Positions 1 to 31,300 of a DNA stretch of 33,297 nt are shown one piece after another. Below the pieces are notes generated by a model that saw nothing but the letters and a program-made list of their open reading frames with translations, did not search any database and was not told the origin of the DNA. Location of the stretch: positions 1 through 33,297 of the IMG/VR virus record IMGVR_UViG_3300025067_000002; one strand, given 5' to 3'. Position 1 is the stretch's first letter, and each line of letters opens with the position of its first letter. The position numbers and the translations under genes were made by a program. Origin of the DNA: a virus.

Positions 1-52
1 GAATAATAAGATGATAATAATATTATATAATATTATTATCATCTTATTATTC
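1..52. repeat. Terminal 52-bp perfect palindrome (probable closed hairpin end)
   Basis: Bases 1-52 read identically on both strands, with the symmetry centre between 26 and 27. The core is pure A/T and the flanks begin GAATAATAAG and end CTTATTATTC. If the genome ends are covalently closed hairpins, as in rudiviruses, sequencing through the loop yields exactly such a palindrome. The physical end would then lie near base 26 and the outer 26 bases would be the opposite strand. Confidence 0.85.
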
Positions 53-443
53 ACCTTTCAATTCTCCCCCGATCATTATATCGGATTTAATGGTGTATGT
101 TATATCGCAGTTGCGCCTTATTTATAGCGCGCTTATTATTATTATCGTCGTTATTATTCGGTGTTGTTAGTATCGTCGTATATTATGTGTTATCTTCTGG
201 GCGCCGTGTTGTTATTAATGATCGGCGCGCTTGGTCTGTTAATATTGCGTATCTGTAGATGTGGTGTTTAACAGGGCGGCAGGGTAAGAGCTAATAGAAT
301 CTGCCTGCATACGTTGCGCGGTATTTACAGTACGTCCTGCGGCGCTAGTAAGATAACTAACTGTACGGCGCTGACGCGATATACGTGTGGCGCGTGTCGA
401 GGAGAGGAGATGTGTGAAAAAAGTGTGTCTGCCGTTAGACGAA
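53..443. other. Subterminal non-coding region, left
   Basis: About 390 bp with no plausible gene. It is rich in TTATTATT-like runs near the tip. It contains a 10-bp inverted repeat CCGATCATTA (69-78) / TAATGATCGG (216-225) and, overlapping the outer arm, a small hairpin CCGAT (69-73) / ATCGG (80-84). Two TCGTCG units (145 and 172) are each followed by a TTATTAT/TATATTAT run. Such sites could bind replication-initiation, nicking or telomere-resolution proteins; this is inference from position. A poly-T tract on the minus strand (417-423) probably ends the PAPS-reductase-like transcript. Confidence 0.6.
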
Positions 444-1268
444 TTACAGCATGCAACTTCCTTCGCAACTTTTGCCGTAGTCTATGAAAGCGTCAAGAGT
501 GCTTAACTTGCTAGCGCGTCTGTAGAACTCCTGTAGTGTCAGACCTAGTTGTGCTAGGCGGAACGGTGCTGATGGTGTCTTGCTTTTTCTGTTTTCGTTT
601 ATGGCCTTGTCTATTTCCAACAGTTGTTGAAACTCTTCGGGGTAATGGCGTATCAGAAGGGCTATGTGGTGTATCGGCATGCCTGCCAGGCAGAGGCACT
701 CGCCTGAAAAGCCGATTTTACGCCACACTGGAGATTCAGGTATGCCATACTGTCTCATCAATTTCATGACCACAGAGTCGTCCATGCGCAACAGCGGCAT
801 CCACAGCTTCACCTTCACCTTGCCGCCATAGACGTGGTCTGCGAATACTTGTTTGTACAGCTTTTCCCTGAACCTGCTTTCTTTGCCGCGTATGCCTAAG
901 ACAACGAAATCGCCCGGACGGTAGTTTTCCTGCAAATAGCGAACTGTCGGTTTTAACTTCAGATCACGCACGCACCACCTGTAGCGATACGGAAACAGTG
1001 AAGGCCACATGCCGTATCTTTCAGCGTATTCGCGGAAAGTTCGCTCTGGTTTGATGACTGCAAGCTCCACGCCAAGCCATTCAGCATAGCGGTAGACGTA
1101 TTCTCTGGTTTCCTTGATGTAAATGGTAGTGTCTATATGAACTAGTCTAAACTCCCAGCCTCGAGCGTCGGCCACCTGTTTTGCTATGCGGCACGCCAAC
1201 GCGCTGTCTCTCCCGCCGCTGAAGAAGCAGTGTATTTTGCGCGTCTCTACTTCTATTCCAACGGCCAC
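444..1268 (-). CDS. PAPS reductase-like PP-loop protein (ITR-L copy)
   Basis: 274 aa with a GTG start at 1268. A longer frame reaches 1418, but its first 50 codons overlap the upstream 109-aa gene and are low in hydrophobic residues, so I prefer the GTG that overlaps the end of that gene by 16 bp and follows a GAGGGG stretch. The PP-loop SGGRDS is at residues 17-22. It is followed by the family motif RWCxxxLKxxP (Cys 99), a GIRxxESxxR element (about 125-133), Cys 191/193 (ECLC), and a Cys-containing tail (268, 272). PAPS reductase-family proteins activate or reduce sulfur adenylates; the relatives DndC and TtcA put sulfur into DNA or tRNA using Fe-S clusters. The Cys set makes a sulfur or Fe-S function plausible. 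The exact substrate cannot be told. Confidence 0.85.
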   Translation of the reverse strand: MAVGIEVETRKIHCFFSGGRDSALACRIAKQVADARGWEFRLVHIDTTIYIKETREYVYRYAEWLGVELAVIKPERTFREYAERYGMWPSLFPYRYRWCVRDLKLKPTVRYLQENYRPGDFVVLGIRGKESRFREKLYKQVFADHVYGGKVKVKLWMPLLRMDDSVVMKLMRQYGIPESPVWRKIGFSGECLCLAGMPIHHIALLIRHYPEEFQQLLEIDKAINENRKSKTPSAPFRLAQLGLTLQEFYRRASKLSTLDAFIDYGKSCEGSCML

Positions 1269-1582
1269 AGCCCCTCTCTGAATGCGTTTCTGAACGGTGA
1301 GCGCTTTGCGACGATCACCACGTCGATGTCGTCGAACCCGTCGTTGCTCGTTACAATGACATCCTTCAGGTTTCTGCCGTAGACGATATAGTCGTCGCTT
1401 TCTGTCACCGCTATCCACATGTCGCCTATCCTATACAGCGCAGGGAAGTCGTACTCGATGATCTCCTTATGCAGACTGCCGTCGAGGTCGCGGTACGTTA
1501 TAACCCCCGCCACCATGTATACGCTTCTCGCCTTTGCCGCGGGGCTTTTTGTTTCTGCACGGGTTTGGTTTTGGACACCCAT
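1253..1582 (-). CDS. Unknown 109-aa protein (ITR-L copy)
   Basis: 109 aa starting at ATG 1582, which lies about 25 bp downstream of the TTTTTAAA box at 1603-1610, so the mRNA is probably leaderless. An upstream in-frame GTG at 1597 is too close to the TATA box. I do not recognise the family. The N-terminus is polar and Lys/Thr-rich. From residue 25 on it alternates hydrophobic and acidic residues as in a compact beta-rich fold (segments around YMVAGVITY, WIAVTES, DDIDVVIVAK). It ends in a basic stretch. The next gene (PAPS-reductase-like) starts inside its last codons. Confidence 0.75.
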   Translation of the reverse strand: MGVQNQTRAETKSPAAKARSVYMVAGVITYRDLDGSLHKEIIEYDFPALYRIGDMWIAVTESDDYIVYGRNLKDVIVTSNDGFDDIDVVIVAKRSPFRNAFREGLWPLE

Positions 1583-1600
1583 GATCACCAAGAACACACA

Positions 1601-1616
1601 GGTTTAAAAACTTTTC
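1601..1616 (-). promoter_or_regulatory. Archaeal promoter of the 109-aa/PAPS unit (ITR-L)
   Basis: On the minus strand the 16-bp block GAAAAGTTTTTAAACC contains a purine-rich BRE-like part and the TATA box. The box centre is about 25 bp from ATG 1582. The same 16 bp occur at 1982-1997 in front of the 80-aa gene, which suggests common regulation. The mirror copy is at 31682-31697. Confidence 0.75.
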
Positions 1617-1684
1617 GCCCACACATGCCCCGGCCTCTGCGCGCCGTAGCAACACGCAACTAAGAAAAAACACCGAGACAGCCT

Positions 1685-1712
1685 AAAAGAAATAAAGAAA
1701 AGAAAAAAAGAA
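1685..1712 (-). terminator. Poly-T terminator after the 80-aa gene (ITR-L)
   Basis: The minus strand is a run of T with few C directly after the stop codon of the 80-aa gene. Archaeal transcription ends on such oligo-T tracts. The mirror is at about 31586-31613. Confidence 0.6.
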
Positions 1713-1720
1713 GGCGGGGT

Positions 1721-1963
1721 TTAGAAAAACGGCGGGAAGACCTGTTGCGGGGCCGGCGCCTCCACCTGCAGAACGTTGCTTGGGAAAACTACTATCCTCC
1801 TGCGGCCGTCGTCAACCTCCATGATCCACGTAGCGTGTCTCAAACCCAGCTCCTCGTAGATGCCGTCCAGCTCCGCGGCCACGTACTCGTCCAAGCCCGC
1901 TTCATAGACCGCCGCTACGCCCCAGTTGCCGAGCCTTATTAAGTCGTTTTTTTGTTGGACCAT
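1721..1963 (-). CDS. Unknown 80-aa acidic protein (ITR-L copy)
   Basis: 80 aa from ATG 1963 (ccATGg context). A TTG two codons upstream gives a slightly longer frame, but the TATA box at 1984-1991 is centred about 25 bp from this ATG, which fits a leaderless start. The protein begins with a hydrophilic Gln/Lys-rich turn, then a mixed alpha/beta segment with an acidic patch (LDEYVAAELDGIYEEL). It ends in a Pro/Phe-rich tail (PAPQQVFPPFF). I do not recognise the family. A long poly-T tract follows on the coding strand (complement of 1685-1712), a likely terminator. Confidence 0.75.
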   Translation of the reverse strand: MVQQKNDLIRLGNWGVAAVYEAGLDEYVAAELDGIYEELGLRHATWIMEVDDGRRRIVVFPSNVLQVEAPAPQQVFPPFF

Positions 1964-1981
1964 GGACAACCATAACTCACG

Positions 1982-1997
1982 GGTTTAAAAACTTTTC
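1982..1997 (-). promoter_or_regulatory. Archaeal promoter of the 80-aa gene (ITR-L)
   Basis: A second occurrence of GAAAAGTTTTTAAACC on the minus strand, with the same spacing to its ATG (1963) as the copy at 1601-1616. The mirror copy is at 31301-31316. Confidence 0.75.
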
Positions 1998-2072
1998 CAC
2001 CGCCTAGAAGCAACAGCTAGACTGCTACGGCTACGGCAATGCGCGCAACACGTCTAGACACGCGGCGCAACG

Positions 2073-2081
2073 CTTAAAAAT
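2073..2081 (+). promoter_or_regulatory. TATA box of the putative G+C-rich RNA (ITR-L)
   Basis: CTTAAAAAT lies in an otherwise G+C-rich surrounding. Its centre is about 24 bp upstream of 2101, exactly where the first base-paired stem of the G+C-rich block begins. No start codon sits at this distance. The mirror is at 31217-31225 on the minus strand. Confidence 0.55.
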
Positions 2082-2100
2082 GCGGACGATGGAGATACGC

Positions 2101-2405
2101 ATCCCGCCTCGGGGCAAGCCCAGGACGGGATAGCGCCGCCGCGCGACGACCCCCGGGGGGCCGGGGACCACCGTCGCGCGGGCCCACGCGGCGCGTCTAT
2201 ACGCCACCCATGCGCCGGGCGCGCGTGGGGGCGGGGGCCTCTCCCGCGTGGGCGCGGCTCAGCCGCGGAGGCGTAGCCCCAGCGAAATTCCCCCCGGGCG
2301 CCGCACTGCGGCCCGCGTCGTCGGCCGGCTCTAAAGGGGGCCGGGGGCCTAGGGGGGGTGGCCCGGCGCGCAGACGCGCCCCGCCGCGGGCTCCGCCGCG
2401 GTGCC
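2101..2405 (+). ncRNA. Putative structured G+C-rich RNA (ITR-L copy)
   Basis: About 305 bp, by eye roughly four-fifths G+C, in a genome whose genes are near 50%. In hyperthermophiles with moderate G+C, such islands typically mark structured RNA genes. Paired elements I can trace: 2101-2106/2126-2131 with an inner stem; 2133-2139/2188-2194 stacked on 2140-2148/2172-2180 (16 bp, no mismatch); 2200-2205/2270-2275 closing three hairpins (2207-2215/2221-2229, 2231-2235/2243-2247, 2254-2258/2262-2266); 2300-2304/2308-2312; 2365-2370/2375-2380 (loop CAGA); 2384-2389/2396-2401. T-rich sequence follows. A U-G pair at 2211/2225 would be a C-A mismatch in the antisense, which favours the plus strand. 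I see no SRP, RNase P or tRNA signature. Function unknown. Confidence 0.6.
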
Positions 2406-2645
2406 TATTTGTGTTTATGTTTAAGAAATAGAAATATGTAGCATACGGCGCGGCCCACGGCGCGGATATATATTTGACAAATGTAAGTCCAGGGCAGGGT
2501 GTACAAACATCCCCGACGAAAAACAAAAACCCCCACCCTCGTTATCCGTATTCCAGCAGAAGAACATAAAAAATGGATAACAACGCCAAGACGAAAACGC
2601 CAAAAAACAGACACCCAAAACAAAAACAGATGCAAAAAAAGAGAA
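2406..2645. other. A-rich/T-rich inner ITR tract, left
   Basis: About 240 bp from the end of the putative RNA to the ITR edge. The plus strand holds many AAAAAC/CAAAAAC units and few stop-forming patterns in several frames. Long frames there look like composition artefacts with Phe/Val/Lys-rich translations. A 7-bp inverted repeat GTTATCC/GGATAAC brackets 27 bp (2541-2547 and 2575-2581). I see no convincing gene. Confidence 0.5.
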
Positions 2646-2683
2646 AAACGCAAACAGGGAACCAGGTTATAGAAAAGAAATAA

Positions 2684-3004
2684 TTACTTTTTTGTTTGTA
2701 TTGAATGTCTGTTTTGCAGTATTGCGAGACGTACGGCAAGGAATGCGGCAATGAGTATTATGGCCACGGCAATGGCTATTATTATTATGCCGAGCCAGAA
2801 CAGGATGTACAGAGCTATTTCGAATCCCGTTGGAAGCACGGGGCGCGGTATGTTTGTTGTCTGCGAGATGTAGTATGACGCGTGTATGTATATCCAGTAT
2901 ATCGAGTACGGTATTAACAATAAAATACCTATGCCGAACAGCCGCCAGCCAATGTTTTGCAACTGAGTATACCGCTGGTAGTCTTTTTCCATGTCTTTTT
3001 CCAT
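2684..3004 (-). CDS. Small two-TM membrane protein (106 aa)
   Basis: 106 aa. After a charged N-terminus (MEKDMEKDYQRY) there are two strongly hydrophobic stretches, about residues 20-40 (FGIGILLLIPYSIYWIYI) and 62-92 (Ile/Ala-rich), then a polar basic tail. The topology is therefore hairpin-like, with both ends probably on the same side. A TATA-like TTATTAAG at about 3023-3032 is spaced for a leaderless start at ATG 3004. It is the first unique gene inside the left ITR. Family not recognised; it could be a virion membrane-interacting or host-envelope protein. Confidence 0.75.
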   Translation of the reverse strand: MEKDMEKDYQRYTQLQNIGWRLFGIGILLLIPYSIYWIYIHASYYISQTTNIPRPVLPTGFEIALYILFWLGIIIIAIAVAIILIAAFLAVRLAILQNRHSIQTKK

Positions 3005-3034
3005 GCGGGAAAAATATTATCTGCTTAATAAGCT

Positions 3035-3718
3035 TTAATCGAGAACAAACGCGCCGCTACCAGAATATCCTGGACGTGCTATTACTTTGTCTTTGCTGTA
3101 TGCTATGTATGCCTCTATTGCGTAAATCTTGCCGTTGTTTGAGACATATGCGACGCCTTTACCTATTATCTTTGCGTTGATCTCGACAAAATCCGCCATC
3201 ATATAATCATACGCTACGTAGTATATGGATGAGCCAACTGGGTTGCCAGTATAATACGGTGTCGGAGTGAAGCCAGCAATCTTTCCGCTTGCGTTGCCAA
3301 AAGACAGTATCAGGTCAGGCATTTCTTTTTCGACCCCCCTGTCTATCAAAGCGAAGTCGTATTTGTTCACACAGTTGCGGAACAGACATAAAACAGGGTT
3401 ATACTGTATTAGCGGCATCCTGTCGATTACTTCGACACGTTCGATTTTCAGATTTCTGCAACCTGCGCCGTAGCAACGCGCGTAGAGCGGAGATGAATCT
3501 ATACAATGAGAAGCCGTGGCGTAGCGGCCATTTGCGCCGAAAGGGGGCGAACATTTGACGAGTGTGCCATACTCCGCACTCATGAACTTCAGTTCTCCAG
3601 TCTCTTCGACGTGCCATCCCTCATGCATCATCTTCATAGCGTAGTTGTCAATTTTTCTGACGAACAGTATCTTCCTCTCGGGGTCGACAAACACGACGTT
3701 TTTCTTACGGAAAAACAT
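3035..3718 (-). CDS. Trypsin-like (chymotrypsin-fold) serine protease, 227 aa
   Basis: 227 aa with the three marks of the S1/PA-clan catalytic triad in the right order: TASHC (His 71), KYDFAL (Asp 121) and GYSGSG (Ser 219). The spacing is typical for this fold (about 50 and 100 residues). The final strand after the serine is short (GAFVLD, end of protein), so the C-terminal beta-strands and helix seem truncated relative to trypsins, as in small viral PA-clan proteases. There is no signal peptide, so it likely acts in the cell or virion. Six cysteines (56, 72, 82, 87, 111, 116) could form disulfides. It has its own TATA box at 3740-3747, overlapping the stop of the next gene upstream. Possible role: processing of viral structural proteins or cleavage of host factors (inference). 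Confidence 0.8.
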   Translation of the reverse strand: MFFRKKNVVFVDPERKILFVRKIDNYAMKMMHEGWHVEETGELKFMSAEYGTLVKCSPPFGANGRYATASHCIDSSPLYARCYGAGCRNLKIERVEVIDRMPLIQYNPVLCLFRNCVNKYDFALIDRGVEKEMPDLILSFGNASGKIAGFTPTPYYTGNPVGSSIYYVAYDYMMADFVEINAKIIGKGVAYVSNNGKIYAIEAYIAYSKDKVIARPGYSGSGAFVLD

Positions 3719-3741
3719 AACCGAATCTCGTAGGTCGGAAT

Positions 3742-4947
3742 TTAAAACTTTGGATCATTATGGACACCGTGGCTCTTCTGCATTTTTCCAAATAACAACG
3801 CGAGTAGTATAATCAACGTGATGACTATTGCCGCGATGACGACATAGCTATGTTCTTTATACGAGTCCGCTTCATATCCCGTCTCGGTTTTTGTCACAAC
3901 TTCAGTCACAGTTTGTGTTATAGTCTCAGTAGCCGCAGACGTCACATATATTGTTTCCGTCTTCGTCACGTGTTCAGTAATCGTCGTAGCCAGAGTAACT
4001 GTCTGCGTCTTGGTAAGTGTTGTTGTATAGGTAGTTGTGGCATGTATCGTCGTCGTGGTAACTGTTGTGGTTGTTGGGGGTGGGCATGGGGAGAACGTCA
4101 CTGTTACGCTAAGTTGCGCGTTCTGTGTAGATGCAAATGCGAGTTTTACCAAGTTGCCGCTGGGCGTGGCGTTGACCAGGACGTTGCTTTTGATCACATA
4201 CGTACCATTCCAATCGTTGACATAATACATGCAATAACGCGCAGTATTGGGCGCAAGCGCGCCGTTGCATTCATTGAACGGTTGGTAGGGCGGCTCTCTT
4301 CCCCAAGTCCATGGCGACAGCAGGAACTGTATGTATGCCTCCGCGATATCGCTAACAGACGAGCTATATACTTGTGTAGCATGGTGCGCTCCATAGCGCC
4401 ACGCCAGCCATGCGAAAAATGCGCCGTATCTGTACCAGTCTATTGTCCATTCAGTTAGTGAGAACGGGTTGCGCGTGTAGAGCATGTTGTCCCAGAATCT
4501 TGAGACGTGGCCATAGTGTTGCCATCTGTCGCCTGCTATATACACAGACGCAAGACCCTCTGCATGTGCCTCGACGTACCACGAGTACTGAGCGCCCCAC
4601 TGTTTTTGTACCGCCATCTGGAGCGCATGTGCCATTTCGTGAAACGCCATGTGTCTGATCTGGTATTGTTGCAAGTCGCATGCGAACTCCATACGCGTCG
4701 CGCAAAGCGAGCCGTATGTCAGCGCCATCTGGCTCAATCTGCTTGATAAAACAACGTGGAAGTTCGGACAAAGCGCGGGGCACTGCACGTCTCTGCAGTA
4801 AACGTCATACGCCTCCTTGAGACTACTCGTCACAGACGTCACGTAGTGTTCGGGTGCGTTGCATTCGTTCACCACAAGATACTGCGCAAACGCATGCGAC
4901 ACGATTGCGGCAAAAAATAAAAAGCACCAACGCGGGCAGAGGCTCAT
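3742..4947 (-). CDS. Secreted, membrane-anchored HExxH zinc metallopeptidase
   Basis: 401 aa. Residues 1-21 form a signal peptide with a likely cut after AFA. The catalytic motif AFHEMAHALQ (His 103, Glu 104, His 107) is followed by a VEAHAEGLA segment (Glu 130 as probable third zinc ligand), the pattern of gluzincins of the peptidase MA type (HExxH ... EGLA). Several Cys pairs lie in the ectodomain. Residues about 288-362 are a Thr/Val-rich stalk, and 366-389 a transmembrane helix with a short basic cytoplasmic tail. The stalk-plus-anchor design resembles archaeal cell-surface proteins, so the enzyme should sit outside the host membrane near the S-layer. The ATG overlaps the preceding gene (ATGA), so it is third in an operon with two membrane proteins. 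Confidence 0.85.
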   Translation of the reverse strand: MSLCPRWCFLFFAAIVSHAFAQYLVVNECNAPEHYVTSVTSSLKEAYDVYCRDVQCPALCPNFHVVLSSRLSQMALTYGSLCATRMEFACDLQQYQIRHMAFHEMAHALQMAVQKQWGAQYSWYVEAHAEGLASVYIAGDRWQHYGHVSRFWDNMLYTRNPFSLTEWTIDWYRYGAFFAWLAWRYGAHHATQVYSSSVSDIAEAYIQFLLSPWTWGREPPYQPFNECNGALAPNTARYCMYYVNDWNGTYVIKSNVLVNATPSGNLVKLAFASTQNAQLSVTVTFSPCPPPTTTTVTTTTIHATTTYTTTLTKTQTVTLATTITEHVTKTETIYVTSAATETITQTVTEVVTKTETGYEADSYKEHSYVVIAAIVITLIILLALLFGKMQKSHGVHNDPKF

Positions 4948-5270
4948 CCTGTGTCTTGCGTTTCCTCGTGCGTTGTGAATAGTCGCATCAGACGTTTAAG
5001 CTCCATGAGCTCCGCCATCATGTGTCTGTACATCCTCGCGATTATGTTGCCGATTGTGGCGGCCGAAAAGAATATTGTGAGCAACCACGACGCAACAGTG
5101 AACATATCGTAGCGGTATGTAAACAGAGACGCAGACGAGTATGCGCCGAATAGTGTCGCGAGAGCCATGTACACATACATGGCATCACCGCGCGTCGCCA
5201 TCCCGGCTAAGACGCCAAACATTGCCAGCAGGACGACCCAAGCAGTTATGTCGACTGTGTACACGATCAT
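4944..5270 (-). CDS. Polytopic small membrane protein (108 aa)
   Basis: 108 aa. Three to four hydrophobic segments at about residues 8-26, 31-48 and 58-78, followed by a Met/Leu-rich amphipathic helix with basic residues and an acidic, Thr-containing end. The start overlaps the stop of the 95-aa gene by 4 bp, and its stop overlaps the peptidase start by 4 bp, so the three are translationally coupled. Family not recognised. With a surface peptidase and another membrane protein in the operon, a holin-like, channel or complex-scaffold role is conceivable. Confidence 0.75.
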   Translation of the reverse strand: MIVYTVDITAWVVLLAMFGVLAGMATRGDAMYVYMALATLFGAYSSASLFTYRYDMFTVASWLLTIFFSAATIGNIIARMYRHMMAELMELKRLMRLFTTHEETQDTG

Positions 5271-5554
5271 ACCACCGACAGGCCGTATTTAGCTGCCAAC
5301 ACTGCGGAATATGTTGCCGTGTATACTGCTACGTCTTTAGCTGATTGGTCGCTAAACCATTGATACGTTACATACAACGCTGTAATCACTGCGCTTGCTA
5401 TCGCGCCTGACACATCTATAGTTGCAGTGTTAGCAGCGACTGTAGCTAACGCTACGTGGCCCAAATCTGTGTGCTGTATAGACCTAAATCGCATAACAAC
5501 ACGTGAGAGTACAAACGCCAAGCCTGCAAGGATGTAGATTAATTCGGTAACCAT
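5267..5554 (-). CDS. Small membrane protein (95 aa), first gene of the peptidase operon
   Basis: 95 aa with an N-terminal hydrophobic helix (about residues 3-22) followed by Arg residues, then a moderately hydrophobic Ala/Thr/Val-rich part with a second possible helix (about 48-66). The TATA box at 5575-5584 is about 25 bp upstream of ATG 5554, so the transcript is leaderless. Rudiviruses make a small membrane protein that builds the pyramids through which virions leave the cell. This protein has a similar size and one N-terminal TM segment, but I cannot show homology and treat that as a hypothesis only. Confidence 0.7.
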   Translation of the reverse strand: MVTELIYILAGLAFVLSRVVMRFRSIQHTDLGHVALATVAANTATIDVSGAIASAVITALYVTYQWFSDQSAKDVAVYTATYSAVLAAKYGLSVV

Positions 5555-5587
5555 ACCGTTTTATTCCGCGTGGAAATATAAATGTAA

Positions 5588-5722
5588 TTATCTGTGCAAC
5601 GCCAGCAACCTACGCAACCGTTTACGCGTGTTGTCTTCTGTCCGTTTTATGGCATGCCTCGCTACATACCTCGCTACATATTGTCTTAATGGAACATAGC
5701 CATTATTTATGTCCACATCCAT
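5588..5722 (-). CDS. Small basic protein (44 aa), leaderless
   Basis: A 44-codon frame on the minus strand from ATG 5722 (ccATGg context) to TAA at 5588. A TATA element (TATTTAAC on the minus strand, 5742-5749) is centred about 24 bp upstream, the usual leaderless spacing. The second half is strongly basic (KR, RKRLRRLL), suggestive of nucleic-acid binding. It contains an exact 12-bp tandem repeat (5657-5668 and 5669-5680) that encodes YVARYVAR in frame. It shares its promoter region with the divergent regulator at 5771. Whether it is really translated is not proven. Confidence 0.5.
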   Translation of the reverse strand: MDVDINNGYVPLRQYVARYVARHAIKRTEDNTRKRLRRLLALHR

Positions 5723-5741
5723 GGTTGCAAATGGCAGTAAC

Positions 5742-5749
5742 TGTTAAAT
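5742..5749. promoter_or_regulatory. Bidirectional TATA element
   Basis: GTTAAATA can be read as a TATA box on either strand. On the plus strand it is about 25 bp upstream of ATG 5771; on the minus strand about 24 bp upstream of ATG 5722. Both genes would be leaderless, and only one could be efficiently initiated from one TBP-bound box at a time. Confidence 0.5.
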
Positions 5750-5770
5750 ACATTTGAAATACATGATGGT

Positions 5771-6238
5771 ATGGCCCGGGGTGAGGTAAAAAACGCGGTA
5801 TATCAAGCGGTTGTACAACACGGTTGTTTATCGCCCAAAGAAATAGCCGACATAGTAGGCATACCAAGAGACATAGTAAATAGCGTCGTCCGAATGATGG
5901 TGAAACAGGGGATATTGGTGGCAATACGCGGCAAAAACCGTTGGCGGGGGCTTGTATACTGCGCGCCTGAAACGATGCGTGATTTAAACGAGAGCGGCAT
6001 GGTTGTGCAGACATGGATAAGAGTTAGCCTGTGTATCTCGTTGCCCCTCGACCTAGTGACCGAGCTCAAAAACGTGGCAAGAGAATACGACATGCCAGTG
6101 TCGCACGTAATTGAACAAATGTTGAGATCGCAACTACGTCCAGTCGAAAACGCGGCTTATAACCAGCATATAAAATCTGTTGATGTGATAAACGACAACG
6201 ATGTGGAGATTGAAAAAATGTTAATAAACGGCAGGTAG
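5771..6238 (+). CDS. Transcription regulator: winged-helix plus ribbon-helix-helix fusion
   Basis: 155 aa. Residues 5-65 form a winged helix-turn-helix (LSPKEIADIVGIPRDIVNSVVRMMVKQGIL, then a basic wing). Residues about 83-121 read as a CopG/Arc-type ribbon-helix-helix: beta strand IRVSLCIS, helix LDLVTELKNVAREY, helix VSHVIEQMLRS. The tail is acidic. Both domain types are very common in archaeal virus regulators, but a single protein with both is less usual and would allow binding of two different operators. The start ATG 5771 fits the TATA at 5742-5749. The next gene follows after 1 bp, so the pair forms an operon. Confidence 0.75.
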   Translation: MARGEVKNAVYQAVVQHGCLSPKEIADIVGIPRDIVNSVVRMMVKQGILVAIRGKNRWRGLVYCAPETMRDLNESGMVVQTWIRVSLCISLPLDLVTELKNVAREYDMPVSHVIEQMLRSQLRPVENAAYNQHIKSVDVINDNDVEIEKMLINGR

Positions 6239-6239
6239 G

Positions 6240-6767
6240 ATGCCACGCGGAGTCGCATTCAAAACACTTGGCCGCATCGGCATGGTGTACGATGTTGTGA
6301 GCAAGCATGGATGTACGACGATATCGGTACTATCACACGAACTCGGCACGACGCGTGCCCAGACGTGGAGCGCCTTGAGATATCTTGAGAAGGTCGGTTT
6401 GATACGTCGACAGAAATTTTCACGCATTATGTTTTACTGCCGTTCGGACACCGTTCTAACCATGGATCACATAATAAAAGCACTTAATTTCAACGGCAGA
6501 AGACATATACGCATTAGCGATATACTCCAGGCCGTTTGCGCATATATATCGTCATCACGTGGACGGACGGCAGTCATCAGAGTTAGTTACATTCTGCGTC
6601 ACCTGTTTTTAGACAACTCACCGATAATGAATGCCGTACTTACAGATATCTTAACCCATATAATGCACGATGCCGTGATAAGAGTGGAGCGTGAAGAAAC
6701 AAAAACGAGAATATATGTCGATATAAAAAAGGCGCAAAGGCAACTGCAGTCAATCTGTAGTGGTTGA
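6240..6767 (+). CDS. Winged-helix transcription regulator (175 aa)
   Basis: 175 aa. The N-terminal half (about 10-70) is a winged helix-turn-helix: ISVLSHELGTTRAQTWSALRYLEKVGLIRR followed by a beta-hairpin wing. It resembles the N-terminal domain of its upstream neighbour (both begin M-basic and contain KHGC/QHGC before the HTH), so the two may descend from a duplication. The C-terminal half is helical with a terminal basic segment and may hold a second wHTH. The start is preceded by GGCAGGTAGG, a plausible ribosome-binding site that overlaps the upstream stop. Confidence 0.75.
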   Translation: MPRGVAFKTLGRIGMVYDVVSKHGCTTISVLSHELGTTRAQTWSALRYLEKVGLIRRQKFSRIMFYCRSDTVLTMDHIIKALNFNGRRHIRISDILQAVCAYISSSRGRTAVIRVSYILRHLFLDNSPIMNAVLTDILTHIMHDAVIRVEREETKTRIYVDIKKAQRQLQSICSG

Positions 6768-6872
6768 ATCTATTTGCACGATTTTTCCGTCACAGTTGCT
6801 TTTTCCGCACAACGGGTTTTTCCAGAAGCCGGCAGAGTTGGACGAACGACTTAAAGAAAACTGCGAGAGAAA
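6768..6872. terminator. Intergenic T-rich termination zone between convergent genes
   Basis: About 100 bp between the convergent ends of the 175-aa and 228-aa genes. The plus strand holds three TTTTTCC units (around 6782, 6801 and 6817), which can terminate the rightward transcript. I see no gene here. Confidence 0.45.
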
Positions 6873-7559
6873 TTAAATGACGCACGCCTGTTCCAACCAT
6901 GCCATGAGCCATTCTGCGCTTTCTGACATGTTACGCGGCATATATCTCCCATCTGTCTTTTCCTTTAGTTTGGCGTTGGGCGCCATGTGATATGCAGCTG
7001 TGTCAAATGAGTAGATCTGGTTCAAAGTGTCGCCTAGATAACGCAAAACCCTGAGCGCCGGTCCCAAAAGATGCACCTTTTTCTGATAGAGTATACGCAA
7101 TGCGCGTTCTATACGTTCGGCACATAGACGTGGCCTGGCTGCGCATGTTGCGTCGCAGTGTTTGCGCGACGGAAGTGCGACAATCTCTGTCTCGTCTATG
7201 AGATTCATATATCTATCTAGATCTGTGTAAAACGACTGCAGGACGAGAACCGGGTTTGCGCCAAGCCGTTTGATTATTTGAGCGTATTTATGCCAGTTTT
7301 CTATAGTTTTCGTAGCGTCGCAGAAAACATCTGGAACAACTGCGTAGACGTCGGCGCGCACTACCGTCGAGACGCGTTTTATGACACGTAGATATTCTTG
7401 AAGCTGAACACCGTGGACAGCGGCGGCTATTCCTATGTCGATCAAAACAGGTGTGGCCTTCGAAACGCAACCGCACCTGGATGGTGTACATAGGCAACCG
7501 ATCTCTATTTTGCGTCTTTGAAGCGATATGTCTATTGGGTCTGGTACGTAGATAATCAT
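6873..7559 (-). CDS. DpdA/TGT-like base-exchange enzyme (228 aa)
   Basis: 228 aa. It carries the run of motifs I associate with the TGT-like TIM barrels of the DpdA group: VLIDIG (38-43), a HGxxLxEYL segment (49-57), YAVVPDVFCDATKTIENW (72-89; Asp 77 and Asp 81 as catalytic candidates), PVLVLQ (103-108), an IVALPS strand (126-131), VHLLG (162-166) and YSFDTAAY (183-190), matching the usual SxDSxxW/Y. TGT enzymes exchange guanine for a 7-deazaguanine in tRNA; DpdA does this in DNA. It is shorter than most TGTs and lacks the usual zinc site, but has two extra Cys clusters: CLCTPSRCGC (22-31) and Cys 135, 139, 146. I infer modification of viral DNA or host tRNA. A 32-aa frame precedes it in the same transcript. 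Confidence 0.65.
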   Translation of the reverse strand: MIIYVPDPIDISLQRRKIEIGCLCTPSRCGCVSKATPVLIDIGIAAAVHGVQLQEYLRVIKRVSTVVRADVYAVVPDVFCDATKTIENWHKYAQIIKRLGANPVLVLQSFYTDLDRYMNLIDETEIVALPSRKHCDATCAARPRLCAERIERALRILYQKKVHLLGPALRVLRYLGDTLNQIYSFDTAAYHMAPNAKLKEKTDGRYMPRNMSESAEWLMAWLEQACVI

Positions 7560-7566
7560 AAGCTGT

Positions 7567-7665
7567 CTATTTGTTCTTTTTCATGCCGCTTTTTCCTTCC
7601 TCTTCGCAGTGAAAATGCCTGCAGATGCGTTCCAAGCCTTTTAGTCTCAACCCATGGTTCACCAT
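7567..7665 (-). CDS. Short leader reading frame (32 aa) upstream of the DpdA-like gene
   Basis: A 32-codon frame from ATG 7665 to TAG at 7567, ending 7 bp before the DpdA-like ATG. The TATA box TTTTTAAA at 7686-7693 is centred about 24 bp upstream, which makes this ATG, not that of the DpdA-like gene, the leaderless start of the transcript. The peptide is basic with Cys 15 and Cys 20 and several His. It may be a small protein or a translational leader that controls the downstream gene. Confidence 0.45.
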   Translation of the reverse strand: MVNHGLRLKGLERICRHFHCEEEGKSGMKKNK

Positions 7666-7685
7666 GTACACTGCTACAATTTATG

Positions 7686-7693
7686 TTTTTAAA
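7686..7693 (-). promoter_or_regulatory. TATA box of the leader/DpdA-like transcript
   Basis: TTTTTAAA read on the plus strand, TTTAAAAA on the minus. It is centred about 24 bp from ATG 7665 on the minus strand. No equally good box lies at the leaderless distance from the DpdA-like ATG at 7559. Confidence 0.5.
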
Positions 7694-7818
7694 CCTAACT
7701 GTAGTGATGATGAGCATAAATAGGCATCTTAGCATACCTCATATATATGGGCGCAACACCGCTACGGACGTATTTGGTATCGCAGAAATATTTATAAACT
7801 GCTTGTTTTTTGAAAACC

Positions 7819-8271
7819 ATGGAAACCAAACAAACACATAACGGAAACCAGCACAGCACTGTCGACGCGAAAAAGAGCCTGAACAATATATTGATTCTGG
7901 TCAACGAACTGCGTAGTGCGTACGAAGAGGAGATTAGGTTGTGGTTTGTTGAGCGTGCAAAAAAATGTGGCGACGATTTGTCATGCATGCATGATGTTTT
8001 CGCAAGGCATAACGTATACAAGCAAACACGTGTCCATGAATATGTTGAATATGTGGCGCAACGGCTAATACCTGTCATAGAGAAGCTGTGTGCTACGCCA
8101 GGCAGAAGACATGAACCTCTAATTACGTTGTATTTGCCGATTGGGGATGGGATCTGGGAATACAGATACTACAGAACGCGTTGCGACGACTTTGTGAAAT
8201 TTGCAAGGAATCTCGCCAACGATTTGTGGCAAAAACAGGTGATTAGTATAGATACTAACGTGGAGCTATGA
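7819..8271 (+). CDS. Unknown 150-aa protein
   Basis: 150 aa from ATG 7819 (ccATGg), about 25 bp after the TATA box TTTATAAA (7791-7798). A TTG three codons upstream is less likely. The first 18 residues are polar and probably disordered (Gln/His/Asn/Thr). The rest is largely helical with a charged surface and a CGDDLSC pair that could form a disulfide. I do not recognise the family. The stop overlaps the next gene by 4 bp (ATGA). It opens the long rightward early-type block that includes the replication proteins. Confidence 0.75.
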   Translation: METKQTHNGNQHSTVDAKKSLNNILILVNELRSAYEEEIRLWFVERAKKCGDDLSCMHDVFARHNVYKQTRVHEYVEYVAQRLIPVIEKLCATPGRRHEPLITLYLPIGDGIWEYRYYRTRCDDFVKFARNLANDLWQKQVISIDTNVEL

Positions 8272-8480
8272 GCGTGGAAGTTTCCCCTGTAGGTAAGGAG
8301 ATAAAGATAACTATGCACGACGCAGAGGTTGTGTGTCCATGCTCAAATATATGGTCTGAGGATTATGGAAAGGCTGTTCTTTATCTAAGCGTAGAAGAGG
8401 CTCTGCAACTGGCCAAGGATATTTTGCGTGCCATTAAGACTGTGCTATCGAACGAATCTGATACGGCGGTTTTGGAGTAG
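8268..8480 (+). CDS. Unknown 70-aa acidic protein
   Basis: 70 aa, start overlapping the previous stop (ATGA), so coupled to it. The N-terminal half looks beta-rich with a CPC motif (residues 23-25). The C-terminal half is an amphipathic helix (SVEEALQLAKDILRAIKTVL). Net acidic. No family recognised. Confidence 0.65.
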   Translation: MSVEVSPVGKEIKITMHDAEVVCPCSNIWSEDYGKAVLYLSVEEALQLAKDILRAIKTVLSNESDTAVLE

Positions 8481-8503
8481 TAATCTCGACCCGTTTTTCT
8501 CAG

Positions 8504-8514
8504 TTTTTAAAAAT
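8504..8514 (+). promoter_or_regulatory. TATA box upstream of the PrimPol-helicase gene
   Basis: TTTTTAAAAAT. Its centre is about 29 bp from an ATG at 8538 that starts only a 23-codon frame, and about 64 bp from the ATG of the large gene. The large gene is therefore not simply leaderless, in contrast to most genes here. Confidence 0.55.
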
Positions 8515-8537
8515 AATACGGCCGTATCATTAGAATC

Positions 8538-8609
8538 ATGGTTTTACATGGTAGGCCACAACAGTTATTAACATGTACTATCTTCTCCGTATGGCCTACG
8601 ACTACTTGA
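8538..8609 (+). CDS. Possible 23-aa upstream reading frame
   Basis: ATG 8538 to TGA 8607-8609 gives 23 codons, overlapping the start of the 881-aa gene in another frame. It is the first ATG after the TATA box. A still shorter frame starts at 8548. It may only delay ribosomes, regulating the replication gene, or may not be translated. Confidence 0.25.
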   Translation: MVLHGRPQQLLTCTIFSVWPTTT

Positions 8610-11218
8610 TACGGGTTGCGGAGTTGCTTGAGGTCTCTGGTTTCAACGTTGTGCCGGTGACCGCGGAAAAACGGCCTTTGGGGCGTTGGTCGTCAAATGA
8701 GAAACTCTACAGCGCCGAAGACGTAGCCAAAATGCGGGATAGGGTAAGGGCAATTGCCATAACGGGCGATTACTACGCGAATAGTGAGTATGCAGTTATC
8801 ATCCTTGACATAGATGAGCCAGACACGGCGGATGCAGTCCTGTCAACGGTGTTTAGAGATTGGCGCCGCGAACTGTGCGGCGGATACGACGCGTTCTGCG
8901 GCCTTACTGGCCCGCGGCCCAAGGGCAAGGTCAAATGCAATAGTGACATATGCGTGAACGAAGAGACGGGAGAACGCATGCGCGTCGACGAAGTGAAACG
9001 CGGTATGTATGTGGTGTTGCGCGTGTTGCGTAATTGTGCTGGTAACCTTTCGACCTCGCGGTTCGGCGCAATAGAGCTGATCTTTAACAACATGCAGACG
9101 GTGTATGGCGATCACCCCTCTGGCCTGCGCTATGAGTTTGCCAAATGGTTAGATGACAGGTGGGTGAAGACTGACACCCCAGGTCCTGGCGTCATACTGA
9201 CATGCGACGAATTTTCGCGTTTAATATCAGCACTGAGGAAATTGAGGCCGTCAAACGACATACAGAAGACGCAACATGTGGCCACGTTGCCCCAATGCCG
9301 CGAATATAAACCACTTGCGGATCCGCAACTCCTGTTGGAAACGCTTAAACGTCTGTGGCCGGCCAAACGCGAAGACGGTTCGTATTTCCATGATGAGATT
9401 CTCTACGCAGTGATTGGTGTGGCATGGTGGAGATGTATTGATCATGAATCTTTGAAGGCCGTATTGTCAGAACTTTTCAGCTGGGCTGTGAAGGAGGGTT
9501 ACGACAACGAGCGCAAAGTACGCGAACATTGGACTCAGACATTTAATTACATCTACGGTGGGAAGGCGCAAAAGGTGTGGGGTATCAGGTATCTCGAGAA
9601 CGTGGTTAGTAACGTGGCACGCGCCATGGGTCTTGACGACGGTGAAAGCAACGACATACTTGACGACATTCTGAAAGCAATAGGAATAGGAGAGCTACAC
9701 AGACCTGTTTGTACCACAATAAAATACATACGCACGCAGAAAAACGGCAAATTTGTATCTATGCCTGCCGTAAAGCTGTGCAACAGCAAGCAGGGTATAG
9801 TGAAGGTCGAGAAAAAACATAAGGACGGCAACGTAGTGACTACAGTCACCAAAGTTGTTAATGCGTATATCAGTGAAATGACCATCTATAGAGATGCCGA
9901 ACTCGATATAGACTACATATCGGCAAAGGTGGAGATTCCGCAACTTGCAACAGAAGAGAGGCTGTCGATGGCGCGCATCTCTGCGCTCGAGCGTATACTC
10001 AGACGTCGACAGGTAGTGACTAGTCCGAACTGGCAGGTGCTTATTGACTATTACCCGCGGCAGGTTGATTACATCATTAGCGGTTTCGTCTGCGGCCCCG
10101 AGCCTGATCGATATCCATGTGCGGTACGCGACTATTTCGATACAGGTTGCCTTACAGACACAACACGCGAAGAGAGCCGGGTTGCGATAGAACGCTTCAC
10201 AGAACTGCTGAGCAAATATGCGCCGTCAGGCGCATGGTACGCCACCGCGATTACCGCCTTTTTCCATGGCGCTTTTCAGAACTTTTTCTTCACGCGCAAG
10301 CTTTGGGGCGTAAGGCCGCAGATTCTGGCGTTTGTCGGGCCGCGGGGCACCGGCAAGACTACGATTGCGCGTACGTTGTTAGAGACGTTCTTTCCCCGCG
10401 TTGCGCACAAGCTGTTTTTAGGGGCGGCATCTGTGCTGACACCGGCACGTGTTGGCAGAATGCAGGATAACCTAGTCACAACGCTTATGGTCATTGACGA
10501 AGTAGAAAGCGTTTCGCATAAACAAGATGTGTATGCAACGTTGAAGAGCTATATCTCAAATCCCACAGCATGGCGCACCGCCATGGGAGATGAGTGGCCC
10601 GCGCGGGCCGGCCTCATTCTTACAGCCAACGCATTGGTTGTAGACGATCCAGAACTTATGGATAAGATCTACACTATACATTTCACAGACACGCCTCAAC
10701 TTGAAAAGCGCTCTGAGTTCGCACGTGAGCTACTGTACGCGCTCAAATACATGAACAAATTCGGCGCGTACTATCTTAAGTATGCAGAGACGCATTGGCA
10801 GGACGTCAAGGAGTATATACTTGCTTCAAGCGCGTCGCGCGGTGCGGAGCTCTACGCCAAAGCGATAGCCGACGACCTGAACATATCTATCGAACTTACG
10901 GAGCCTGGAGATGCATCCACTGTTGTTGTCACCGCTGTCGATAAATACATAAGATGGATGTACAACTATGTAGTCCGGTTTAGCGGCATAATACGCGACG
11001 ATGCCATGCCGGCATGGCGCGTCGTTGACGAGGCGTTGCAAAAGTCTCTGCTACCTCATCATCGTGCCGTGAATGACCACGTGCTAATAATGAGGACGAT
11101 ACAGAGCGAAATTATGGTGAACATCAGGACATTGTGTGAGGAACTGGGAGGCAAACTTGATCGACATGGTTGCGTCGTTGAGCGTAATGTTGTGATAGAC
11201 AAGTTTTACGAGTCGTAG
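8573..11218 (+). CDS. Primase-polymerase / AAA+ helicase replication protein
   Basis: 881 aa. The N-terminal part resembles archaeo-eukaryotic PrimPol domains of plasmids and viruses: FNVVPVTAEKRPLGRW (24-39), the metal-binding YAVIILDIDEPD (73-84; Asp 79 and 81), and IELIFN ... YGDHPSG before a YEF segment. The stretch RGMYVVLRV sits where PrimPols usually have a G-H-x-Y-R motif, so the catalytic His may be replaced by Met. The C-terminal part is a P-loop ATPase: Walker A GPRGTGKTT (about 588-596), Walker B LMVIDEVE (about 639-646), and sensor-like LILTANA, as in SF3/AAA+ replicative helicases. Start: ATG 8573 or ATG 8591; neither has a clear ribosome-binding site. Likely the main replication initiator/primase-helicase. 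The classical rudiviruses I know lack such a gene. Confidence 0.8.
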   Translation: MYYLLRMAYDYLIRVAELLEVSGFNVVPVTAEKRPLGRWSSNEKLYSAEDVAKMRDRVRAIAITGDYYANSEYAVIILDIDEPDTADAVLSTVFRDWRRELCGGYDAFCGLTGPRPKGKVKCNSDICVNEETGERMRVDEVKRGMYVVLRVLRNCAGNLSTSRFGAIELIFNNMQTVYGDHPSGLRYEFAKWLDDRWVKTDTPGPGVILTCDEFSRLISALRKLRPSNDIQKTQHVATLPQCREYKPLADPQLLLETLKRLWPAKREDGSYFHDEILYAVIGVAWWRCIDHESLKAVLSELFSWAVKEGYDNERKVREHWTQTFNYIYGGKAQKVWGIRYLENVVSNVARAMGLDDGESNDILDDILKAIGIGELHRPVCTTIKYIRTQKNGKFVSMPAVKLCNSKQGIVKVEKKHKDGNVVTTVTKVVNAYISEMTIYRDAELDIDYISAKVEIPQLATEERLSMARISALERILRRRQVVTSPNWQVLIDYYPRQVDYIISGFVCGPEPDRYPCAVRDYFDTGCLTDTTREESRVAIERFTELLSKYAPSGAWYATAITAFFHGAFQNFFFTRKLWGVRPQILAFVGPRGTGKTTIARTLLETFFPRVAHKLFLGAASVLTPARVGRMQDNLVTTLMVIDEVESVSHKQDVYATLKSYISNPTAWRTAMGDEWPARAGLILTANALVVDDPELMDKIYTIHFTDTPQLEKRSEFARELLYALKYMNKFGAYYLKYAETHWQDVKEYILASSASRGAELYAKAIADDLNISIELTEPGDASTVVVTAVDKYIRWMYNYVVRFSGIIRDDAMPAWRVVDEALQKSLLPHHRAVNDHVLIMRTIQSEIMVNIRTLCEELGGKLDRHGCVVERNVVIDKFYES

Positions 11219-11274
11219 CTTCCTCTCAAGCGACCTCTGTTAAATAAATAAAAAAGTGGTCTGAACCTTCAACA

Positions 11275-11613
11275 ATGCGGGTAGTGTTTGTCGACAGTCT
11301 ACATACCTACGCTTTCTGGCACGATACACACTATATACTTTACGTAGAGCCAATTTCCGATATAGAGACTTTAGTAAAGAGAATCAGGGAACTGGTGTCG
11401 GGTTGCGACGATGTTAAATATGTACACTTCATCAGGGATATATACGTGATAGATATGCTACGCAGATACTTCAAAGACCTGCACCCCGACTTGACGCGGG
11501 CACAGTACAGATACCGAGTAGGCGACGTGATCGTTGTTGTGACGCCACAAGCCGCAATAGACACGTACACATATCACATAATCACAGCAATGCCGGTACC
11601 TCACAACCCTTAA
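11275..11613 (+). CDS. Unknown 112-aa alpha/beta protein
   Basis: 112 aa from ATG 11275, preceded at about 11240-11255 by an A/T-rich TATA region (TTAAATAAATA). Alternating strands and helices: RVVFVDSL, HYILYVEPI, a helix ETLVKRIRELVSGC, YVHFIRDIYVIDML, and a strand VGDVIVVVTP. This suggests a small alpha/beta fold. Cys 43 is isolated. I do not recognise the family. Confidence 0.75.
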   Translation: MRVVFVDSLHTYAFWHDTHYILYVEPISDIETLVKRIRELVSGCDDVKYVHFIRDIYVIDMLRRYFKDLHPDLTRAQYRYRVGDVIVVVTPQAAIDTYTYHIITAMPVPHNP

Positions 11614-11650
11614 GCGCAAAACTTAAATACATGAAATTTCATTAACACCC

Positions 11651-12007
11651 ATGGAAACCAAAAACGGGAGAATAATAAAGGTCTCGTGGAGAATTACGAA
11701 CGCAGGTGGCCTTACGATACCAATTGCGTTCAAGTTAGAAGGGTTCAAGCTCTCCTACATAAGACCAATAGCCGAAGAATCTAGCAACTCGGGGACGCAT
11801 GGCATGTACTATTATAGCGACGTAGATTTGATTCTGCAACTCATCCAAAGCAATAAGACTCTACACAGATATGTGCAGATTCATACATGCAACACGAATG
11901 CTTCACTGTGCGAACAAGTGAAGAAATTAGCCTACGAAGAGTGGGTGTTAAAGCGAAAGGAGCCAAGAAGAGTCGTGGACAGGATACTGTCTGAAGCGAA
12001 GCCGTGA
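11651..12007 (+). CDS. Unknown 118-aa protein
   Basis: 118 aa from ATG 11651 (ccATGg), with TATA box CTTAAATAC at about 11621-11629 giving leaderless spacing. N-terminal beta-strands (IIKVSWRIT, PIAFKLEGF) and a C-terminal basic helix (WVLKRKEPRRVVDRIL). HTCNTNASLC may be a disulfide pair. It is coupled to the helicase gene through a GTGA overlap, so it might cooperate with it. Confidence 0.75.
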   Translation: METKNGRIIKVSWRITNAGGLTIPIAFKLEGFKLSYIRPIAEESSNSGTHGMYYYSDVDLILQLIQSNKTLHRYVQIHTCNTNASLCEQVKKLAYEEWVLKRKEPRRVVDRILSEAKP

Positions 12008-13638
12008 TCACCTTAGTAGTGAGAGATAAGGAATACAGGTGGCGGTGGAGTCGAGACGTTGTGGAGATACTTAGGAAGTTTGCGAGGTTTGATGGAAACA
12101 CAAAAACGTGGCATGCGGACACAGTCCCATGTTGGGCCGCCAGTGTTCTTGGCGTGGAGCAGTGTAGCGACGTGAGGTGGTACCGAGGCTACGCGTATAT
12201 CTCAAACGTGTCGCAAGAGATAATAGAGCGCGAAACGTGTTACACAATTGAGAGGTGGAAACCTATGACATGTGAAGATATGTGTTCTTCGTTATCATGC
12301 TTGGATAGGTGCAAAACTGAGGGCTGGCGCAAAGTTGCCAAGGTCAAGGAGAAAATCTGTCTTGCAAAGAAGACAGAAAAAGGCGACTGGGCCGTGCCCA
12401 GAGGGCTGGTGTTACGCGTCGCTAAAAATGTCCACGATTTTGCCGAGTTTCTGAAACCGCTCGAGACAAATGAAGTGTTACGCGACTACCAGATCCAGGT
12501 TGTTAACAACCTGTGGTCGCAACTACGCAAGATTGGTTGCGGCACAGTGATGATGGCGACTGGCGCTGGCAAGAGTTTCACTGCGGGTTACCTAGCTAAG
12601 CAACTCGAACGTAGCGGATACACGGTGGTAATGACTGCGTTGCAAGTTGACTTAGTGAACCAACTGGTGGAGTTCGCGCGGAGGTTTGGCGTAAAGAATG
12701 TTTACGGTGTTACAATACAAACACTATATAGACGTCTCGCCAAGAGAAACGTGGCAGAAGACGCGGAAGACGAAGAAGACAGAGAGTTGTTAAATGCGTA
12801 TGCAGATGAGATTGAGATAAGCGACGACATCGTGGAGATACTCAGACGCAAAGACACCGCCGTGATACTCGACGAAGCACACCACGTGCCGGCAGAAACG
12901 GTGAAACGTGTGGTTACAGAGATAGGAGACGGATGGGGGTTGCGGATAGGTTTGACCGCAACCCCCTGGAGAAATGACGGCAGAGATCTTGAGATATATG
13001 CGGTTCTTGGCGATGTTGTTGAACCACGTATTTCGTCGTCATATCTGATTTCTCGCAACTACGCAGTACCAGTTGAGATCCGCGTAGTCAACGCGCCTAG
13101 TTGCGATGTCAATTGTGCAGACGACGGGGCGAAGGGCTTCATGTGCATACGCAAGGCGCTTGTGGAATGTGATAAACGGAACAAACTCATCGTGAAGCTT
13201 GCCATAGAAAGCAAAAAGCCGGTCTTAGTGACCACCAAGCTTGTCAAACATGCCGAACTGCTTTACAGACTTATTAAGCAAACTGGAGCATCGGTCGCTC
13301 TCGCAACAGGTGCTGTGAAAGGCGAGAAGCGCAAGGAGATATACAGAAACGTGCTGGATGGCAGGATAGACATATTAGTCGCCACAACAATTGCAGAGGA
13401 GGGTCTCGACCTGCCGCCGTTACAAACGATGATACTTGCGCTCGCAGACAAGAGCAGGACACGTACGTTGCAACGTGCCGGCCGTCTTGTGAGGCCTTGG
13501 CCGGGGAAAGAGACAGGAGTGTTGTATGAGATTAGGGACAATGTTGAGTTCTTCGACGAACACCTGGAGCAACGCTTAAAACTATATGCAACCGAGCCAA
13601 TGTGGAAGATAACAATCGACGAACGGAGGTATGGATAA
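12004..13638 (+). CDS. Superfamily 2 DNA helicase (XPB/UvrB-like core)
   Basis: 544 aa from GTG 12004, overlapping the previous stop by 4 bp. Motifs: LRDYQIQVV (Q-like, about 160), Walker A ATGAGKS (185-191), Walker B DEAH (290-293), motif III LTATPWR (from 317), IDILVATTIAEEGLDLP (motif V) and QRAGRLVRP (motif VI, 490-498). This is the order of XPB/Rad25-like SF2 helicases. The first 150 residues hold an extra domain with a Cys cluster TCEDMCSSLSCLDRC (about 93-107), which could bind zinc or form disulfides. It probably unwinds or remodels DNA during replication, transcription or end resolution. The next gene starts inside its last codons. Confidence 0.88.
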   Translation: MITLVVRDKEYRWRWSRDVVEILRKFARFDGNTKTWHADTVPCWAASVLGVEQCSDVRWYRGYAYISNVSQEIIERETCYTIERWKPMTCEDMCSSLSCLDRCKTEGWRKVAKVKEKICLAKKTEKGDWAVPRGLVLRVAKNVHDFAEFLKPLETNEVLRDYQIQVVNNLWSQLRKIGCGTVMMATGAGKSFTAGYLAKQLERSGYTVVMTALQVDLVNQLVEFARRFGVKNVYGVTIQTLYRRLAKRNVAEDAEDEEDRELLNAYADEIEISDDIVEILRRKDTAVILDEAHHVPAETVKRVVTEIGDGWGLRIGLTATPWRNDGRDLEIYAVLGDVVEPRISSSYLISRNYAVPVEIRVVNAPSCDVNCADDGAKGFMCIRKALVECDKRNKLIVKLAIESKKPVLVTTKLVKHAELLYRLIKQTGASVALATGAVKGEKRKEIYRNVLDGRIDILVATTIAEEGLDLPPLQTMILALADKSRTRTLQRAGRLVRPWPGKETGVLYEIRDNVEFFDEHLEQRLKLYATEPMWKITIDERRYG

Positions 13639-13894: not shown

Positions 13895-13917
13895 ATATGA
13901 GCAATTATTTTGAACCC

Positions 13918-14223: not shown

Positions 14224-14228
14224 AGCGC

Positions 14229-15150: not shown

Positions 15151-15210
15151 CTTTTCGTACACACATGTTGGTGAAGAAAAAGGAGAGCTGTTTCAATTGG
15201 CGTGGTTTTT

Positions 15211-30892: not shown

Positions 30893-31197
30893 GGCACCGC
30901 GGCGGAGCCCGCGGCGGGGCGCGTCTGCGCGCCGGGCCACCCCCCCTAGGCCCCCGGCCCCCTTTAGAGCCGGCCGACGACGCGGGCCGCAGTGCGGCGC
31001 CCGGGGGGAATTTCGCTGGGGCTACGCCTCCGCGGCTGAGCCGCGCCCACGCGGGAGAGGCCCCCGCCCCCACGCGCGCCCGGCGCATGGGTGGCGTATA
31101 GACGCGCCGCGTGGGCCCGCGCGACGGTGGTCCCCGGCCCCCCGGGGGTCGTCGCGCGGCGGCGCTATCCCGTCCTGGGCTTGCCCCGAGGCGGGAT
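30893..31197 (-). ncRNA. Putative structured G+C-rich RNA (ITR-R copy)
   Basis: Exact mirror of 2101-2405, transcribed (if the reading is right) on the minus strand toward the unique region. Its TATA-like box is at 31217-31225, and the hairpin-plus-T-rich end is near 30893. It diverges from the 80-aa gene. See the left copy for the helices. Confidence 0.6.
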
Positions 31198-31300
31198 GCG
31201 TATCTCCATCGTCCGCATTTTTAAGCGTTGCGCCGCGTGTCTAGACGTGTTGCGCGCATTGCCGTAGCCGTAGCAGTCTAGCTGTTGCTTCTAGGCGGTG

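Follow-up and report, generated by a model that had tools for sequence, protein, structure and literature searches.

A probable structured non-coding RNA gene in the inverted terminal repeats of a rudivirus-like virus

The viral contig IMGVR_UViG_3300025067_000002 (33,297 bases, G+C 0.50 overall; the whole of this stretch is referred to here as the window) carries a short G+C-rich block, the island, towards the inner end of each of its inverted terminal repeats (ITRs), which raises the question of whether this block is a gene for an RNA, a DNA element or something else. Our analysis indicates that it is probably an ITR-borne gene for a structured non-coding RNA that is undescribed as far as we have searched.

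At both ends of the genome the ITR runs for 2,645 bp without a mismatch, and its outermost 52 nt (1-52 and 33246-33297) form a perfect palindrome, as would be expected if the ends were covalently closed hairpins that the assembly had read around; the palindrome is thus consistent with closed hairpin ends but is not proof of them. Positions 18277-18687 encode a coat protein matching Sulf_coat_C (E 3e-23), with 36-42% identity to the coat proteins of Sulfolobales rudiviruses, on the basis of which the virus is rudivirus-like and its host would, by inference, be a hyperthermophilic archaeon. A search for the host by DNA matches between positions 1-20000 and 229 genomes of one archaeal class found none. 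The ITR also contains a PAPS-reductase-like gene (444-1418, minus strand) with a copy in the right ITR, and so occurs twice per genome.

The sequence-only reading from which this work started had described a sharply bounded G+C-rich island duplicated in both ITRs, and both parts of that description hold. The best-scoring G+C segment of the window is 2103-2405, with a score of 70 and an identical mirror at 30893-31195; the second-best segment anywhere in the window scores 9.7, and the maximum reached in 20 dinucleotide shuffles of the entire window is 12.5. The G+C content of the island is 0.82. A canonical G-quadruplex motif, GGGGGCCGGGGGCCTAGGGGGGG, lies at 2336-2358 on the plus strand of the island only, and none is found in the island of the relative described below.

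Archaeal promoters were scored with a BRE/TATA matrix trained on the upstream regions of 14 protein genes only, the island being excluded. The site CGCAACGCTTAAAAATG just ahead of the island ranks 127th of about 66,500 positions, with antisense candidates being weaker (ranks 374 and 1102), and the corresponding site of the relative (6906-6922) ranks 87th of 103,490 with the same matrix. In many of the protein genes the BRE/TATA site ends 17-21 nt ahead of the start codon, as in leaderless transcripts, and applying this spacing to the island sites gives a predicted +1 at 2101 in the window and at 6940 in the relative. At each of these predicted starts the first helix of the respective predicted fold begins, so that by sequence the promoter stands at the correct spacing before the island in both viruses. 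The TATA box that had been placed at the right distance from the first stem is therefore borne out, as a TATA-like site at 2072-2080 with an implied start at 2101. The other end is less clear: a terminal hairpin followed by T-rich sequence had been proposed, and a terminator scan does locate a hairpin with a T-rich tail at 2382-2403, but with 2.0 sites expected and 2 found, this feature alone is no evidence of termination. In the relative there is no T-run directly after the island, the next long one being about 100 nt onward.

The predicted fold of the island (Table 1) agrees in part with the stems previously traced by eye. For the nested 7 + 9 bp stems, the 9-bp helix (2140-2148/2172-2180) and an inner 6-bp helix are present in the fold, but the 7-bp outer stem (2133-2139/2188-2194), although perfectly complementary, gives way in the predicted fold to a rival pairing of 2133-2139 with 2398-2404. 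The four-way junction suggested at 2200-2275 is not predicted, the minimum-energy fold giving instead one long arm (2182-2253) plus a small hairpin at 2254-2266. Nor can the traceable perfect stems serve as proof of structure at 82% G+C, since those of 8-9 bp are no commoner in the island than in shuffles and therefore prove little alone; for perfect stems of at least 10 bp there is a slight excess (2 against 0.3 in shuffles).

Table 1. Coordinates in the window of the island and its associated features, most of them predicted
Feature	Position	Strand	Basis
BRE/TATA promoter of the putative RNA gene	2066..2082	+	Matrix rank 127; upstream region alignable with relative
Putative structured ncRNA gene, left ITR copy	2101..2405	+	G+C segment, promoter spacing, fold, counterpart in relative
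5' hairpin AUCCCG...CGGGAU, beginning at predicted transcript start	2101..2131	+	Mean pairing probability 0.95-0.99
9-bp plus 6-bp hairpin	2140..2180	+	Pairing probability 0.99-1.00 at 37 C, 0.95 at 80 C
Long arm closed by 10-bp perfect helix	2182..2253	+	Closing helix pairing probability 0.99
3' domain, predicted three-way junction with arms 2290-2357 and 2358-2387	2270..2397	+	Predicted fold
T-rich stretch, possible termination site	2406..2424	+	Sequence; terminator scan not above chance
A-rich downstream flank common to relative	2502..2664	+	Alignment beats 500/500 shuffles
Mirror copy of the putative gene, right ITR	30893..31197	-	100% match, perfect ITR
Same promoter, right ITR copy	31216..31232	-	Perfect ITR

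Folding energy was compared with that of dinucleotide-matched shuffles, for which the main tests used 37 C energies; the counts are values per test, uncorrected for multiple testing, and several tests bear on the same two island sequences. For the plus strand of window 2101-2405, 11 of 300 shuffles are as stable (z -1.8), a modest signal, and the minus strand is unremarkable (z -0.75). The promoter strand of the relative's inner island is matched by none of 120 shuffles (z -3.4, and -4.0 in another run), and its minus strand is also somewhat better than shuffles (z -2.0). The energy gap between the strands favours the plus strand, with 3 of 120 shuffles as extreme in the relative and 34 of 300 in the window. 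With folding at 80 C the signal is lost in the window (z -0.5) and reduced in the relative (z -2.1). On the promoter strand at 37 C the folding signal is therefore strong in the relative and modest in the window.

The relative in question, G002, is a 51,809-bp contig found by a scan with a 1,923-aa protein of the window, and coordinates given for it refer to L010, its first 12 kb. It has many core genes in common with the window, among which the major capsid (coat) protein is 72% identical, an 881-aa ATPase 58% and the 1,923-aa protein about 50%. It also has a perfect ITR, of 7,640 bp, with a 120-nt terminal palindrome, and since bases 17-79 of the window align at 79% with the region of that palindrome, the two viruses have a probable hairpin telomere in conserved form. 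An island of 440 nt (L010 6942-7373) is situated near the inner ITR edge, as it is in the window. The flanks upstream of the two islands (window 2044-2107, relative 6884-6950) align to a degree that only 5 of 500 shuffles equal, or 1 of 500 for the core stretch, and the A-rich flanks downstream (relative 7461-7628) align better than every shuffle (Table 1). As the promoter and downstream flanks both align above chance, the two islands are, on alignment, positional counterparts. The A-rich flank, lying between the island and the ITR edge, is conserved though no gene is apparent in it.

The islands themselves are another matter. Local sequence alignment of the two islands alone is not above chance, and in global alignment 8 of 500 shuffles are as good, with a control pairing reaching 19 of 500. 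An early score for the whole region, which none of 200 shuffles equalled, had suggested sequence homology, but with the islands alone this was unconvincing and it was rejected, the early score being attributable to the homologous promoter and the boundary between A+T-rich and G+C-rich sequence. Judging from these alignments the G+C blocks have either diverged beyond recognition or been replaced, between flanks that are common to both viruses.

The first helix is AUCCCG/CGGGAU in the window (mean pairing probability 0.95) and AUCGCCCC/GGGGCGAU in the relative (0.97), the strand starting AUCCCG in the former and AUCGCC in the latter; should these helices be homologous, compensated changes would account for two of their first six pairs, which is no more than suggestive given that only two sequences are compared and the pattern was noticed post hoc. 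Structure alignment was performed with a LocARNA-like program written for this analysis, which is not a published tool. Global alignment of the two islands beats 111 of 120 shuffles (9/120, z 1.8), which is not significant. For the 3' domain, which was chosen post hoc, 13 of 300 or 63 of 300 shuffles score as well, depending on which sequence is shuffled, and a resemblance between the predicted 3' domains is at most suggested. The RNA reading gains from the positional counterpart in the relative, which on the corresponding strand folds significantly more stably than its shuffles.

A second G+C-rich region of the relative, L010 4732-5154, was considered as another copy of the island and rejected, there being no folding signal on either strand. 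Between it and the island lies an ORF (L010 5308-6297) that by eye resembles a DNA adenine methyltransferase and is flanked at 5135-5180 and 6310-6360 by a similar motif, approximately CAGGCCCCCGCCCC...GAAA...ACGC(G)CATxTTTTTA; this ORF and the flanking motifs are perhaps an inserted cassette.

How widely the element is distributed was assessed in other viruses. No G+C island is present in the 4-5 kb ends of the seven Sulfolobales rudiviruses checked (SIRV1, SIRV2, ARV1, SRV, SBRV1, SMRV1 and MRV1), where the highest 250-nt window has a G+C content of 0.33-0.54. These members of the Rudiviridae resemble the window in their linear genomes, in terminal repeats that are annotated in several of the records, and in a related coat protein, and differ from it in lacking the island. 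A more distant relative, G006 (26.4 kb), likewise has no island; its right end (L048) carries a 32-nt perfect terminal palindrome that marks a probable hairpin telomere. The remaining relatives are fragments or have no recognisable ends. They include contigs from archaeal assemblies, G118 (L044) and G172 (L045, L046 and L053), with coat proteins 51-52% identical to that of the window, which may be incomplete further members, or proviral or co-binned relatives. Among the genomes sampled the island is therefore found in two genomes only, the window and G002, and as far as sampled the element would belong to a narrow lineage. Separately, an unrelated virus, the Pyrobaculum spherical virus (L062), likewise has G+C-rich structured intergenic DNA, with long near-perfect hairpins at 3203-3320 and 1260-1360; on either strand the stretch 3190-3320 is more stable than its shuffles (z -3.8 and -4.8), and it has no Rfam match.

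The absence of any known RNA family, as the sequence-only reading had it, is upheld by the searches made. The window has no match at the gathering threshold to Rfam 15, which includes the archaeal SRP RNA and RNase P RNA, and a permissive search of the island gave only three chance-level matches (E above 7). The islands of the relative have no Rfam match, the covariance models of GOLLD and ROOL do not match the window, and an ARAGORN scan of the window found no tRNA or tmRNA gene. No protein match to the island was found, nor any similar DNA in phage records; one 17-base pattern from the island has no exact match in IMG/VR, and comparison of the island with the 229 archaeal genomes gave short G+C-rich matches only, which were taken as chance. 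Within the open-access literature searched we found no account of any virus infecting hyperthermophilic archaea that has a gene for a large structured non-coding RNA, and no precedent for such an RNA in the terminal repeats of an archaeal rudivirus-like virus.

It could be argued that the island acts as DNA, as a site or barrier in replication, recombination or end resolution that is constrained mainly in composition, with any RNA being incidental. This would suit an element that is present in two copies within the ITR, the islands being alike in composition and place with no alignable sequence, and the strong folding of both strands, including the minus strand of the relative. However, both viruses have a promoter spaced exactly to the edge of the island, the promoter strand gives the stronger folding signal, and the ends of seven Sulfolobales rudiviruses lack such a block, so that it does not serve replication in rudiviruses generally; a DNA role is considered unlikely. 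Less likely again is that the islands encode a new, lineage-specific family of large structured RNAs that serves in a ribonucleoprotein machine copying, resolving or coating the linear genome, and not as a decoy for the host. The narrow distribution speaks against the element being essential to replication or virion assembly of the rudivirus type.

A role as a structured leader or attenuator at the 5' end of a longer transcript running inward would account for the upstream promoter and for the want of a T-run directly after the island of the relative, but the first genes past the ITR boundary (2684-3004, 3035-3718 and 3742-4947) are on the opposite strand, leaving no downstream gene to control, and such a leader seems decidedly improbable. 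Scarcely any weight is given to a packaging RNA of the phi29 type, or to an RNA that takes part in copying or coating the genome. The packaging RNA of phi29 is structured and, like the putative island RNA, has its gene close to one end of a linear genome, but it is single-copy, about 174 nt long and works with a portal motor. In rudiviruses the DNA is wrapped in coat protein, and no portal-type packaging motor is known for them; furthermore the ends of the seven other rudiviruses checked lack the element, and no match to such an RNA was found in Rfam. It is equally hard to credit a G+C-rich protein-coding gene, for although ORFs of 73 aa (plus strand) and 109 aa (minus strand) overlap the island and the relative's island has open frames of 66 to 123 aa, a scarcity of stop codons is itself expected to leave long frames open, these frames miss the predicted transcript start and extend into the A+T-rich flank, and none is common to the two viruses, in keeping with the original view that the island is not coding.

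The explanation that we favour, and hold to be rather better than an even prospect, is that the island, with its own promoter, encodes a non-coding RNA about 305 nt long that is stable, has several domains and would most likely act in trans as a decoy-like accessory RNA. Host RNA polymerase would initiate from the BRE/TATA promoter at 2101 and 31197 and transcribe inward, producing an RNA whose 5' end is held in a helix from nucleotide +1 and whose 3' end lies in the closing helix at 2398-2404, with release in the T-rich sequence after 2405. Having two copies of the gene near the termini would provide a high and probably early dosage. We infer a decoy-like role in trans, in which the RNA would bind a host protein or ribonucleoprotein involved in defence, translation or RNA decay; action as a decoy seems more likely than action as a template or guide, and nothing found here points to a specific partner or target. 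A sequence that changes rapidly while place, promoter and composition stay constant is compatible with an RNA that is directed at the host and evolves fast, and the same pattern also fits a DNA block constrained in composition alone.

Such an RNA would probably represent a new family of a known kind, the viral accessory or ornate RNAs, with no matching Rfam model. GOLLD and ROOL are large, highly structured non-coding RNAs of prokaryote viruses that have no coding capacity and whose function is unknown; they come from bacterial systems, range from about 660 to more than 800 nt in length, have many sequenced members with covariation and often occur near tRNA genes (PMC12286853). The putative island RNA shares with them its large size, predicted structure, viral origin and lack of coding capacity, and differs in being archaeal, about 305-440 nt long, located in an ITR, with no tRNA nearby and no match in Rfam. 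In eukaryotic systems, the adenovirus VA RNAs and herpesvirus EBERs are short, stable, structured and independently transcribed RNAs that bind host proteins. They are a working analogy only, as they differ from the island RNA in polymerase, size, host domain and sequence, and the target here is hypothetical.

Finally, if the RNA is real, viruses of hyperthermophilic archaea would also carry dedicated RNA effectors, and the island would provide a naturally heat-stable RNA for structural work. Furthermore, the combination of a promoter and a G+C island near the inner ITR edge would then be a signature by which more of these genes may be found.
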